Origin: Nitrososphaerota archaeon
GTDB taxonomy: Archaea; Thermoproteota; Nitrososphaeria; Nitrososphaerales; Nitrosopumilaceae
Length of the DNA: 45,991 nt
Assembly: GCA_028867275.1 (NCBI GenBank)
Contig: JAGWGU010000007.1
Coordinates: 1-45,991, forward strand
Reading direction: 5' to 3'
Positions 38,030 through 42,511 of the stretch are shown here, piece after piece; the stretch's first letter is position 1, and every line of letters starts with the position of its first letter. A model generated the notes under the pieces. That model worked only from the letters and a program-made list of their open reading frames with translations, made no database searches and was not told the origin of the DNA. The position numbers and the translations under genes were made by a program.

Positions 38030-39445
38030 TTGGAAAACCTGGTTGTTTCAAAATTTGGCGGCAGTGCAGTAGGTGTAGACGGCATACTAATACCAACTAT
38101 AATCAAAAGGATTAACGAGCTGAAAAAAGATTCCAAAGTAATTACAGTTTTTTCTGCTCCTCTTACCACATATAATGAAAAACAGAGATCGCTTACAGAT
38201 ATTGCACTTGAGATTGGACGTAGTGCAGAAAAAGGAGAGAGTCTAGGTACGGAAATTCTAAGAAAACCATATCAAAAAATTGTTGAGATGGTAGACAAGA
38301 CACTTCAAGATGACTGTAACAGGACTATCAATTCTTTTTTAGAAAAAGCTGAAGCTGTTTTAGCAGAGACTCTACAAAAAAGAGAATTTGCCAATGAAAC
38401 AAGAGCAAGATTACTTGCGTATTCAGGTGAAGTCTTGATGTCCCATGTAATGAACTATGTCCTAAAAAGTTCTGGAATAAAATCAGAAGTTATTTCATTT
38501 GACATATGGCCCATAATCACTGATAATAATTTGGAGTCTGCAAACTTTCTTGCCTCAGAGTCATCAGAAAGAATGAGTGGGGTCGAGAAACTATTGGAAG
38601 AAAATGATGTTCTGTCAATTGGAGGATTTATTGGAAAAACAGTAGAAGGTGTAGAAACGACATATGAAAGAGGGGGTTCTGATAGGACTGCTGCTGATCT
38701 TGGTATTCTTTTTAGCAAAAAATACAATACTAGAATTGATTTTGAGAAAGACAGTGCTGTACTATCTGCAGATCCACGAGTAGTCAAAGAAGAACTAGAA
38801 AGCATTACCAGTCTCTCGTACAATGAAGCAAGAATTGCAGGAATGTTTGGAATGAAAATTTTGGATCCGATTGCAATAAAGGAAATAGTGGAAAATGGTG
38901 TAGAGATGCCAATAATAATTACAGACATGGGCAGGCCTGAAAAAATAACAACAATCGAGAGAAAACCAAGTGAAAAGAATGGCCATCCTCTCAAAATAGT
39001 CACAGGAAAGAAAAACTGTTCTATTGTTAGAATTGAGAAAGAGGCATCGGAGAGGTTGTTCCAGTCCCTTGATAGAGACAAGAGGTATAGTGAATTTGTG
39101 GTCTTGTCTCCATTTACTAAAGACGATATCGAGTTTACAAGGATATTATTTCTGGATGGAGACTATGTCAAACGCAATGAGAGATACATTTTAGGATTTG
39201 ATTCGTTGGCGTCTATAACTTACAACAGGGGTGTGATCACTTTGATTGGAGATGAAATGTGGCGTGTCCAACAAGTTGCATCAAAAGCAAGCTCTAGAAT
39301 AGGCGAGGTGGGTCTGAACATACTCAACATGGATGCACAAGAAGAAACATCTAGAATCATAATAGTAATTGAAGATAGTGCAGACAGCATAGAGAAAGCG
39401 ATCAGGACAGTCCATGCAGAAAGATCGAAAATAAAATTTGTTTAA
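38030..39445 (+). CDS. lysC: Aspartate kinase
   Basis: The 471-residue protein begins with the kinase motif VSKFGGSAVG (Lys-Phe-Gly-Gly), has GGSDRTAADLG for substrate and ATP binding near 215-225, and LSADPRVV. The C-terminal 160 residues are a regulatory pair of ACT domains, including the strand FLDGDYVKRNERYIL and EVGLNILNMDAQEETSRIIIVI. It phosphorylates aspartate on the way to threonine, methionine and lysine. Regulation by end-product amino acids through the ACT domains is expected. The single gene has its own promoter. Confidence 0.93.
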   Translation: MENLVVSKFGGSAVGVDGILIPTIIKRINELKKDSKVITVFSAPLTTYNEKQRSLTDIALEIGRSAEKGESLGTEILRKPYQKIVEMVDKTLQDDCNRTINSFLEKAEAVLAETLQKREFANETRARLLAYSGEVLMSHVMNYVLKSSGIKSEVISFDIWPIITDNNLESANFLASESSERMSGVEKLLEENDVLSIGGFIGKTVEGVETTYERGGSDRTAADLGILFSKKYNTRIDFEKDSAVLSADPRVVKEELESITSLSYNEARIAGMFGMKILDPIAIKEIVENGVEMPIIITDMGRPEKITTIERKPSEKNGHPLKIVTGKKNCSIVRIEKEASERLFQSLDRDKRYSEFVVLSPFTKDDIEFTRILFLDGDYVKRNERYILGFDSLASITYNRGVITLIGDEMWRVQQVASKASSRIGEVGLNILNMDAQEETSRIIIVIEDSADSIEKAIRTVHAERSKIKFV

Positions 39446-40094: not shown

Positions 40095-41009
40095 ATGAAA
40101 GAACAGGGCAAGATTTGGATGAATGGTAATCTTGTTGCATACAAAAATGCAAAAGTCCATGTCCTTACACATGCATTACACTATTCAACTGCAATATTTG
40201 AGGGAATTAGATGTTACAATACTCCTAGAGGTCCGATGGTTTTCAGATTACCAGAGCATGTAGATAGGTTATTCAAGTCTGCAAAAATGTATTCAATGAA
40301 AATTCCTTATTCCAAAAAAGAAATCTCAGATGGAATAATTAAGACAGTGAAAGCAAGTAAACTCAAAGAATGTTACATTAGACCTATTGCATACTATGGC
40401 CATGGAGTGATGGGTCTTACACCAACTCCAAACAAGATAGATGTTGCAATAGCTTGCTGGGAGTGGAACACTGGCGAGTCCAGTGCAGGAAAGGTTCATG
40501 GAGCAAGATGTAAAGTATCAAGCTGGCTTAGAATAGATTCTAGATCACAGCCCATGCAGGCAAAAGCGGCATCAAACTATGCAAATGCGGCCTTGGCAAG
40601 AGTAGAAGCTCTAAGAGATGGCTATGATGAGGCAATCATGTTGAATTACCATGGCAAGGTATCAGAGGGAAGTGCAGAAAATATTTTCATTGTGAACAAG
40701 GGTGAGATCTTGACACCTCCACTAAACGCAGGCATCCTTGATGGAATAACAAGGGATAGTGTAATCAAGATAGCAAGATCAGAAGGACTTGTGGTAAATG
40801 AGAGAGAAATTGATAGAGAAGATCTGTACATAGCAGATGAGGTCTTTATGACAGGTACTGCAGCTGAGGTAAAATCAGTAGCAGAAATTGACAATGTAAC
40901 AATTGGAAACGGTAAGGTTGGAGAAATAACTCGAAAATTGCAAAATGCTTTCAATGAAGCGTCAAGGGGAAGAGATGAGCGCTTCTCAGAGTGGTTCACT
41001 CCAGTATAG
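40095..41009 (+). CDS. ilvE: Branched-chain amino acid aminotransferase
   Basis: The 304-residue class IV PLP enzyme has KAKVHVLTHALHYSTAIFEGIRCY at the start (the family's conserved HALHYS-FEGIR pattern), the PLP-lysine region QAKAASNYANAALARVEAL near 155-172, EGSAENIF near 195, and TGTAAEV near 255. It makes valine, leucine and isoleucine from their oxo-acids with glutamate. The C-terminus overlaps the C2H2 gene by 35 bp, a coupling that may only reflect compactness. The length fits the family well. Confidence 0.95.
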   Translation: MKEQGKIWMNGNLVAYKNAKVHVLTHALHYSTAIFEGIRCYNTPRGPMVFRLPEHVDRLFKSAKMYSMKIPYSKKEISDGIIKTVKASKLKECYIRPIAYYGHGVMGLTPTPNKIDVAIACWEWNTGESSAGKVHGARCKVSSWLRIDSRSQPMQAKAASNYANAALARVEALRDGYDEAIMLNYHGKVSEGSAENIFIVNKGEILTPPLNAGILDGITRDSVIKIARSEGLVVNEREIDREDLYIADEVFMTGTAAEVKSVAEIDNVTIGNGKVGEITRKLQNAFNEASRGRDERFSEWFTPV

Positions 41010-41229
41010 GCTTGAAAAAAGATTCAATTATGACAGAGGGGTAAATGAAATATCAATGGTACTATCAATGGTAGATCAGCACAAGCCAAAGTGCTACCTA
41101 TGTAGCAATGTGTTTGAGAATTTGGAAGAGTTGAGAAGGCATCAAGAAAATGCGCACAAGGAGTTTGTTGAATTCCACAAGGATGTAAATAACCACTCTC
41201 CTACACCTGGAGATGTAACCATCTTTTAG
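40975..41229 (+). CDS. C2H2 zinc-finger protein, 84 residues
   Basis: From ATG at 40975 the product is 84 residues. A frame running further upstream to 40945 lies wholly in ilvE and is set aside. The centre has CYLCSNVFENLEELRRHQENAH, matching the C2H2 consensus C-x2-C-x12-H-x4-H, with Phe and Leu at structural positions. C2H2 fingers are scattered in archaea and usually bind nucleic acid or protein. The N-terminal 30 residues (LQYRLEKRFNYDRGVNEI) form a basic helix. It starts within the ilvE end, so the two are probably co-transcribed. Confidence 0.82.
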   Translation: MSASQSGSLQYRLEKRFNYDRGVNEISMVLSMVDQHKPKCYLCSNVFENLEELRRHQENAHKEFVEFHKDVNNHSPTPGDVTIF

Positions 41230-41239
41230 ATGAAATACC

Positions 41240-41398
41240 ATGGAATGCAATGAAACTGCCACTAACCCAATCTGCTGGTTTTGTAGAAAAGGCCGCCACG
41301 AAGATTGTATGAAAAAGATTCCCACATATGGCAAGTCAGATGGTCCGCACGACTGTACATTTGACACAAAACTTGTAGATTGTCAGTGCACCCACTAA
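41240..41398 (+). CDS. Small Cys/His-rich protein, 52 residues
   Basis: ATG at 41240 opens 52 codons to TAA at 41396-41398, 10 bp after the C2H2 gene on the same strand. Seven Cys and three His occur in the product: MEC, then CWFCRKGRHEDC (two ligand pairs around a short loop), DGPHDC, and CQCTH at the very end. This many paired ligands in so few residues argues for one or two bound metal ions. No family is recognised. It may function with the preceding zinc-finger protein. Confidence 0.75.
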   Translation: MECNETATNPICWFCRKGRHEDCMKKIPTYGKSDGPHDCTFDTKLVDCQCTH

Positions 41399-41706
41399 AT
41401 TCAAAAACGTGTTATCGTAACATCTCTCTAGACTAGATTTTATTCAACACTTGGTATAGTTTCTATATCTTCTTCAAGTTCTTTAACCAAACCTTTCCAC
41501 CATTGTTCAAATTTTTCCATATCTTTGCAAGACTCACAAAACCCTCTTTATAGATCTGTCGATCTTTTGACTGGCAAATTTTATTAAAATTATGTGTCAT
41601 ATGTATTGTTTTGAAAGCATAGAATGTTTTGGAAAAAAATTGTTTTCAACAATTTGTTGATAAAAAATTATTTTTTGTAATATCATTTGAAAAAATTTAG
41701 AATCAG
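41399..41706. other. Spacer of 308 bp before tRNA-Lys
   Basis: Apart from the 26-codon minus-strand frame at 41440-41520, which is given separately, nothing coding is visible. A T-rich run and an AT-rich stretch near 41600-41700 lie next to the tRNA 3' end. Confidence 0.4.
41440..41520 (-). CDS. Possible microprotein, 26 residues
   Basis: ATG at 41520 opens 26 codons to TAA at 41440-41442. The peptide starts MEKFEQWWKGLVKELEED and is an acidic amphipathic helix. The codons just upstream, in frame, encode a Cys-Glu-Ser-Cys knuckle but lack a start. A TATA-like run ATCTATAAAGAG lies about 25-36 bp upstream on the minus strand (41545-41556), with the expected spacing. It is too short to be sure. 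Confidence 0.35.
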   Translation of the reverse strand: MEKFEQWWKGLVKELEEDIETIPSVE

Positions 41707-41795
41707 CGGGTCTAGTGGGATTTGAACCCACGACATAGGGATATCTCCGAAAGATCATAAGAGTCCCTCGCTCTACCTGGCTGAGCCATAGACCC
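41707..41795 (-). tRNA. tRNA-Lys(CTT) with 15-nt intron
   Basis: Read on the minus strand, acceptor GGGTCTA pairs perfectly with TAGACCC, discriminator is G, and D arm GCTC/GAGC and T arm GTGGG-TTCAAAT-CCCAC are normal. The anticodon stem AGGGA/TCCCT encloses 22 nt: CTCTTA, an intron TGATCTTTCGGAGAT (41743-41757), then A. Joining gives loop CTCTTAA and anticodon CTT. The insertion after position 37 folds into a bulge-helix-bulge with CTCT paired to GGAG and two 3-nt bulges, the substrate of archaeal splicing endonuclease. CCA is not encoded. Confidence 0.93.
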
Positions 41796-41851: not shown

Positions 41852-42448
41852 TTAGTTTACTGCTTCTACTTGAGAATATTTCTCTAGTATTTTTGTCAGT
41901 ACGGTAGAGACTGGAGCATTGTTCATCTTTTCTTTTTCTGCCAAGAGTTTTCTGTATGCATCAAGTGTGATGTACACAGGGATTGAACCGTTGCCTTCTA
42001 ACAAACCTCTTACTCTGTATAGAGCAGTTTCCATTCCTTTTTCTGCCACCTTGGCAAACTTTGCCTTGTCCATAATTGCACCAAGTGGACCAAATGGCAT
42101 ATCATAGTTTACTGTCATGGTAACTCGGGTTTCTTTCTCACCAAGTTTCTCAAAATCAACTGCAATTTCCCATTTCTTAAATGGACCCTTGATCATTTTA
42201 GCAGCAACTTTTCTTTCTGGAATGTATTCAGTTGTCTCACAGTCCCACTCTAGTCTCTTACCATCAAAGTCACCAATTACTCTAAATGTTGTACCTACTC
42301 CCATTCCTGCCTTTACGTCCATAGGAACTACTGTCATTCCTACTCTCTCTTCGAATTGGTCAGAGATGTGCTCAGGTCTTGCAAAGTATGTGAAAACATT
42401 TATGGTTTTTTCTTTGATGTCAATTGTTTTACTAACAGTGGTCATCAT
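41852..42448 (-). CDS. START/SRPBCC-like protein with ribbon-helix-helix-like tail
   Basis: From ATG at 42448 the product is 198 residues (a TTG at 42454 adds two). The first 140 residues fit the SRPBCC/START helix-grip fold: a beta strand VSKTIDIKEKTINVFTYFAR, a mixed-strand middle with EWDCETTEYIPER and RVTMTVNYDMPFGPLG, and a long helix. The last 50 (SIPVYITLDAYRKLLAEKEK onward) read as a strand and two helices, like ribbon-helix-helix DNA-binding domains. SRPBCC proteins bind hydrophobic ligands, so a ligand-sensing regulator is one model. That model is inference. It is divergent from the Ig-like secreted gene. Confidence 0.72.
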   Translation of the reverse strand: MMTTVSKTIDIKEKTINVFTYFARPEHISDQFEERVGMTVVPMDVKAGMGVGTTFRVIGDFDGKRLEWDCETTEYIPERKVAAKMIKGPFKKWEIAVDFEKLGEKETRVTMTVNYDMPFGPLGAIMDKAKFAKVAEKGMETALYRVRGLLEGNGSIPVYITLDAYRKLLAEKEKMNNAPVSTVLTKILEKYSQVEAVN

Positions 42449-42511
42449 TGGCAATTTTCTTAGAACTTGATTTAAAGCTTTTGTTAATTTTCACAGATCG
42501 AGTGCCGTAAC

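Follow-up and report, generated by a model that had tools for sequence, protein, structure and literature searches.

Two conserved, probably zinc-binding microproteins of the Nitrosopumilaceae and their lineage-specific tandem behind ilvE in Nitrosotalea

In the window, that is, the whole stretch of 45,991 nucleotides of contig JAGWGU010000007.1 that was analyzed, the branched-chain amino-acid transaminase gene ilvE is followed by a gene for a single C2H2 zinc-finger protein (the finger) and, 10 base pairs (bp) behind the finger stop, by a gene for a Cys/His-rich microprotein (Table 1). The window belongs to the genus Candidatus Nitrosotalea (Nitrosopumilaceae), and the nearest public relatives of its microprotein lie on contigs bearing this genus name, among them those of Ca. 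N. devanaterra and Ca. N. bavarica. A preliminary description of this DNA had read a C-x2-C-x12-H-x4-H finger frame overlapping ilvE and, 10 bp further on, a 52-codon frame with seven Cys and three His, as two small metal-binding proteins in tandem that are coupled to amino-acid synthesis and may form a regulatory pair. Both frames are present in the window sequence as described. It is likely, however, that they encode two separate and ancient zinc microproteins, almost always single-copy, which were brought into tandem by a lineage-specific move of the finger gene and serve as metal-folded adaptors; the adaptor role, taken alone, is a tentative proposal to which we give somewhat less than an even chance. 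For two near-universal, uncharacterized microproteins of a very abundant group of microbes, ligand sets, a corrected start site, a family distribution, and gene neighborhoods are provided.

The finger gene behind ilvE: start site and upstream element

The finger frame is open from position 40945, but homology begins only at the ATG at 41056 (MVLSMVDQHKPKC). When 60 relatives were searched with the 94-residue frame, many alignments started at about residue 37, and the alignable upstream part mostly contained stops; in a side-by-side comparison of 29 loci, MVLSMVDQHKPKC was the common start, preceded by residues that differ from locus to locus. Because the upstream codons are unconserved and hold in-frame stops in relatives, the start is assigned to 41056, and the finger protein, as judged from these alignments, is 57 residues long, not 94. 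It therefore does not overlap ilvE, which ends at 41009 and is separated from the finger ATG by 46 bp. The overlap proposed earlier is an artefact of choosing the first ATG, the open upstream frame running into the 3′ end of ilvE by chance.

A conserved element, AAAGATTCAATTATG, starts 34–40 bp upstream of the finger ATG in Nitrosotalea loci, and this near-constant distance is held in one locus (L042) despite an ilvE–finger gap of 162 bp; a gap of 214 bp printed for another (L034) is an artefact of a broken ilvE frame and no real gap. The copy in the window is the sole perfect match in its genome, and the position would suit an archaeal TATA box and transcription factor B recognition element (TATA/BRE) of a leaderless or short-leader transcript. 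A comparable AT-rich element, judged by eye only, precedes the finger in other genera. A general promoter consensus derived from upstream 6-mers was discarded, as the sampled genes were mostly orthologues of one another, and a snoR117-like Rfam match on the minus strand (41008–41087; E 0.04, 24.5 bits vs. a gathering score of 42) was taken as chance.

Table 1 Features of the window at and around the finger and microprotein genes
Feature	Position	Strand	Basis or remark
Aspartate kinase	38030–39445		
Small hydrophobic gene, about 70 residues	39779–39988	minus	between aspartate kinase and ilvE
ilvE, branched-chain amino-acid transaminase	40095–41009	plus	NCBIfam NF005146/TIGR01122 above cut-off; conserved upstream neighbor of the microprotein
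Open upstream part of the finger frame, outside the finger protein	40945–41055	plus	no conservation at the protein level; interrupted by in-frame stops in many relatives
Conserved promoter-like element AAAGATTCAATTATG	41018–41032	plus	27 Nitrosotalea loci
Single C2H2 zinc-finger protein (predicted), 57 residues; ligands C13, C16, H29, H34; near-invariant tails	41056–41229	plus	alignments; profile match to solved C2H2 fingers; predicted strand-strand-helix
Cys/His-rich microprotein, 52 residues; predicted ligand set C12, C15, H20, C23, C39, C48, C50, H52	41240–41398	plus	alignments; near-universal in the family; Nitrososphaeraceae homologues
tRNA gene	41706–41795	minus	Rfam tRNA match, 60.5 bits
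SRPBCC-type protein	41852–42454	minus	

Conservation and predicted metal sites of the two proteins

Among 131 good-quality genomes of the Nitrosopumilaceae, finger orthologues are found in 128 and the microprotein in 126, each almost always as a single copy. The pooled ratio of nonsynonymous to synonymous changes (pN/pS) against 29 relatives is 0.14 for the finger and 0.10 for the microprotein (C12–H52), indicating strong purifying selection on both. The frames are short, and neither protein matches a Pfam or NCBIfam family above cut-off, as might be expected of chance open reading frames; such an origin for one or both has nevertheless next to no likelihood, being already refuted by the conservation, that is, by these low ratios and by near-universal orthologues with invariant ligands. 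The earlier reading had named two outcomes that would refute it, a second frame that is not conserved and cysteines that vary freely. Neither was found: the microprotein is conserved, and C15, C23, C39, C48, and C50 are invariant in all 40 aligned members.

The finger follows the pattern C13-x2-C16-x3-F20-x5-L26-x2-H29-x4-H34, with the classical C2H2 spacing (PF00096 type) and hydrophobic residues at the core positions. Its ligands are conserved in 41 of 42 orthologues across the family, in all of which M1, V2, P11, C13, C16, D53, and F57 are invariant, while F20, L26, H29, H34, and the segment P-A-P-G-D-V are kept in nearly all and the conserved Phe is the last residue. Both tails are thus near-invariant, the N-terminal one beginning with MV(L/M)P and the C-terminal one reading PAPGDVTVF-COOH. 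The family profile matches solved C2H2 fingers (best E 1e-9), yet the finger stays below the Pfam gathering cut-offs of the C2H2 families (16.6–20.1 bits vs. 25.2–27), and AlphaFold places helices at residues 23–33 and 35–43 with modest confidence, in a predicted strand-strand-helix pattern. A class-level search outside the family gave three weak matches, to the finger part only. Two other finger-like proteins were noted: Nitrosotalea also has a protein of 230–250 residues (L211, L212) in which a similar finger close to the N-terminus precedes a hydrophobic segment, and in the genus g35 another small C2H2-like protein (CEKCNITFYSSVGLNAHLERTH) is encoded in the vicinity of the finger (L144:3850-4041, L145:3900-4067).

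The microprotein alignment includes ten members from family f8, which we take to be the Nitrososphaeraceae. Position 20 is His or, in two members (L173, L175), Cys; H52 is His in 39 of 40; and C12 is Cys in all members from the Nitrosopumilaceae and Thr in the ten from the Nitrososphaeraceae, which end in CxCxCH and thereby gain one C-terminal Cys (f8 loci, L177–L188). Of the seven Cys and three His counted originally, Cys3 is unconserved and His37 is replaced by Asp, Glu, Gly, or Lys in some members; judged by conservation, these two are not ligands, and the family set is six Cys and two His. Within the genus, W13, F14, G18, R19, I27, P28, G35, P36, F41, and D42 are invariant as well. More divergent homologues occur in many f8 genomes and in one f3 genome. 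A search of the PDB sequences with the microprotein profile found no solved structure, and DUF6248 (PF19761), matched weakly and below threshold by 18 of the 40 members (best E 0.011; 11.6 bits vs. a Pfam cut-off of 26.7 for the microprotein of the window), is only a lead. An apparent fusion of the microprotein with ilvE in one genome (G063; an open frame of 375 residues) was rejected, because its upstream part reads a GC-rich ilvE in the wrong frame. A viral origin of either gene was rejected likewise, as the viral contigs searched contained no relatives of the finger or the microprotein and the phage records searched contained none of the microprotein.

The few ligand changes seen are exchanges between Cys and His, namely, H20 to Cys in L173 and L175 and two Cys in the H29/H34 stretch of L199, the sole finger member with changed His ligands, and are therefore compatible with metal sites. 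Together with the conservation, they support the metal binding predicted for both proteins, which on the evidence of their sequences are probably zinc-binding, with zinc as the presumed metal. In the mechanism proposed here, one or two zinc ions held by the six Cys and two His would organize the fold of the microprotein, and the finger would form a single strand-strand-helix C2H2 module. Six conserved Cys within 52 residues, and ligand changes that retain thiol or imidazole side chains, would also suit a metallothionein-like metal buffer or a redox or Fe–S protein instead of a structural zinc protein, but the many non-ligand residues invariant within the genus speak for a specific fold and surface and make this alternative quite unlikely.

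Such proteins are worth comparing with the CPxCG-related zinc-finger proteins frequent in archaea, such as Brz of Halobacterium (PMC2253796), which regulates its neighbor gene, and HVO_0758 and HVO_2753 of Haloferax (PMC10716476), which are likewise Cys/His-based, 50–60 residues long, and predicted to be zinc-folded. At 57 and 52 residues, the finger and the microprotein both lie within the size range of this group (<100 residues), but a CPxCG-like pattern as defined there (PMC2253796) is found in neither, the finger having CYLCS and the microprotein CWFCR and a C-x-C at its end; unlike that group, the finger is of the C2H2 type and the microprotein has the arrangement C-x2-C-x4-H-x2-C ... C-x8-C-x-C-x-H. 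Both papers caution that a Cys pattern is no guarantee of zinc binding (PMC2253796, PMC10716476). As a stand-alone single finger of about 60 residues with terminal extensions, the finger also resembles the archaeal-virus protein AFV1p06 and its C2H2 relatives (PMC3541406); the difference is that AFV1p06 is a viral, DNA-binding protein whose fourth ligand is Glu. With the classical C2H2 fingers of eukaryotes (PF00096/PF13894; e.g., the CTCF fingers), it shares ligand spacing and hydrophobic core positions, but it differs from them in being single, in its acidic helix and conserved tails, and in its sub-threshold Pfam score. A eukaryote-like, single-copy C2H2 finger occurs throughout the Nitrosopumilaceae, in a phylum where the survey of AFV1p06 relatives reported no thaumarchaeal homologue (PMC3541406).

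Gene order across the family and origin of the tandem

Among 80 named loci, 21 have the finger between ilvE and the microprotein; these all come from acid-soil ammonia oxidizers of the Nitrosotalea group (Nitrosotalea itself and the sister genus g37, e.g., L151), and in none of the other 59 is the finger near the microprotein. Hundreds of kilobases separate the two genes in closed genomes of other genera (e.g., positions 173,575 and 671,325 in G118; 240,054 and 963,783 in G194; 223,410 and 972,745 in G190). The microprotein stands directly behind ilvE in nearly all Nitrosopumilaceae loci read, and the order aspartate kinase, small minus-strand gene, ilvE, microprotein, (methyltransferase), SRPBCC is kept in Nitrosopumilus, Nitrosarchaeum, and others. 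The finger, on the other hand, is directly divergent from a CofH/MqnC-type radical S-adenosylmethionine (SAM) gene in 25 of the 32 finger loci read outside Nitrosotalea; in two of the others genes are inserted between, four have no radical-SAM gene there, and the last is L151, a tandem locus of g37. The divergent gene carries the Pfam domains Radical_SAM and CofH_C, may encode aminofutalosine synthase (MqnE), and is still present at other sites in Nitrosotalea genomes. The f8 homologue of the microprotein lies behind a conserved gene of 86–97 residues and not behind ilvE in 9 of 11 loci read (one of the 11 being the f3 locus); the linkage to ilvE therefore does not hold everywhere. The Nitrosotalea genome has a distant homologue of this preceding gene at another site.

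The gene order suggests that the microprotein is an old companion of ilvE in the Nitrosopumilaceae, probably co-transcribed with it, and that the finger gene, with its own promoter-like element, moved from beside the radical-SAM gene into the ilvE–microprotein gap in an ancestor shared by Nitrosotalea and g37, giving rise to the tandem. The claimed tandem is kept throughout these two genera and nowhere else among the 80 loci. The coupling to amino-acid synthesis holds for the microprotein only, since the finger of most other genera stands by the radical-SAM gene. As far as the sequences tell, the pairing is a local rearrangement and not an ancient regulatory couple. That both proteins act in one complex controlling ilvE or the supply of branched-chain amino acids might be thought from the short-spaced tandem, the family-wide microprotein–ilvE linkage, and the overlap of the two frames in one subclade, but such a regulatory pair appears very unlikely, and is unsupported as a general rule, in view of the wide separation of the genes in other genera, the lack of an ilvE link of the finger there, and the unrelated gene preceding the Nitrososphaeraceae microproteins. 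Since the tandem is conserved within Nitrosotalea and its sister genus, a lineage-specific coupling of the two might exist there.

With regard to function, 41 of 42 finger orthologues have Glu or Asp at residue 24, which is recognition position 2 when C2H2 fingers are numbered in the standard way; the helix is acidic, and the mean net charge of the family is −3. The acidic helix and the conserved tails make a protein partner more likely than the reading of DNA, and we propose that each protein would be a metal-folded adaptor, the finger presenting its tails to such a partner. A eukaryote-like, DNA-binding transcription factor that ancestrally controlled the divergent radical-SAM gene would agree with the classical C2H2 profile, with the position next to one and the same gene in most genera, and with the DNA binding of the stand-alone viral finger AFV1p06 (PMC3541406). 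It is nonetheless unlikely, because the protein is acidic, is a single finger without a basic arm, and was kept in Nitrosotalea where the divergent arrangement was lost. Several points weigh against the adaptor reading and the proposed move. Net charge by itself leaves open that the finger may bind nucleic acid; the direction of the move is drawn from gene order; the AlphaFold models of both proteins are modest (mean predicted local distance difference test scores of 73.5 and 64.1), and a fold search in the PDB gave no match for the microprotein; and in one genome (G012, locus L049) the finger is disrupted after C13, by gene loss or an assembly error, with the upstream element and the microprotein intact.

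A subclade without an ATG start, and neighboring genes

In eight Nitrosotalea genomes (L025, L040, L041, L043, L045, L046, L047, and L048), no in-frame ATG, GTG, or TTG precedes the CWFC motif of the microprotein, apart from L048, where a GTG lies four codons upstream of the motif; L040 and L043 are deprived of any canonical start by an in-frame TGA. The six of them with a readable ilvE form one clade (support 0.999). At the finger/microprotein junction of this subclade, GTATTTTAG, the microprotein frame crosses the finger stop in the −1 register as ATT TTA (or ATT CTG/CTA) in all eight, spacing differences among the loci are whole codons, and a Cys between ATT and CWFC is retained while the codons change synonymously, as would be expected if this part is translated. 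The simplest reading of the junction is a non-canonical AUU start overlapping the finger stop. All eight take the A of ATT from a GTA codon for Val, and GTA makes up only 12–17% of the Val codons in sampled genes of two GC-rich members; as support for an AUU start this is weak, since the codon may simply be inherited. Translation of the microprotein from an AUU within AUUUUAG by termination-reinitiation, with obligate coupling of the two zinc proteins, is conceivable but doubtful; if true, it would make the finger and the microprotein a lineage-specific stoichiometric pair. A fusion by −1 frameshift was thought unlikely, there being no slippery heptamer at GTA TTT TAG or GTA TTC TGA. For non-canonical initiation or coupled translation in archaea, the subclade provides a test case from nature.

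Around these genes, the small hydrophobic gene in the gap between aspartate kinase and ilvE is conserved family-wide, and the one relative tested had no match in Pfam. The anticodon of the tRNA gene was unassignable by ARAGORN, which read it as ctta, and the gene is perhaps interrupted by an intron.
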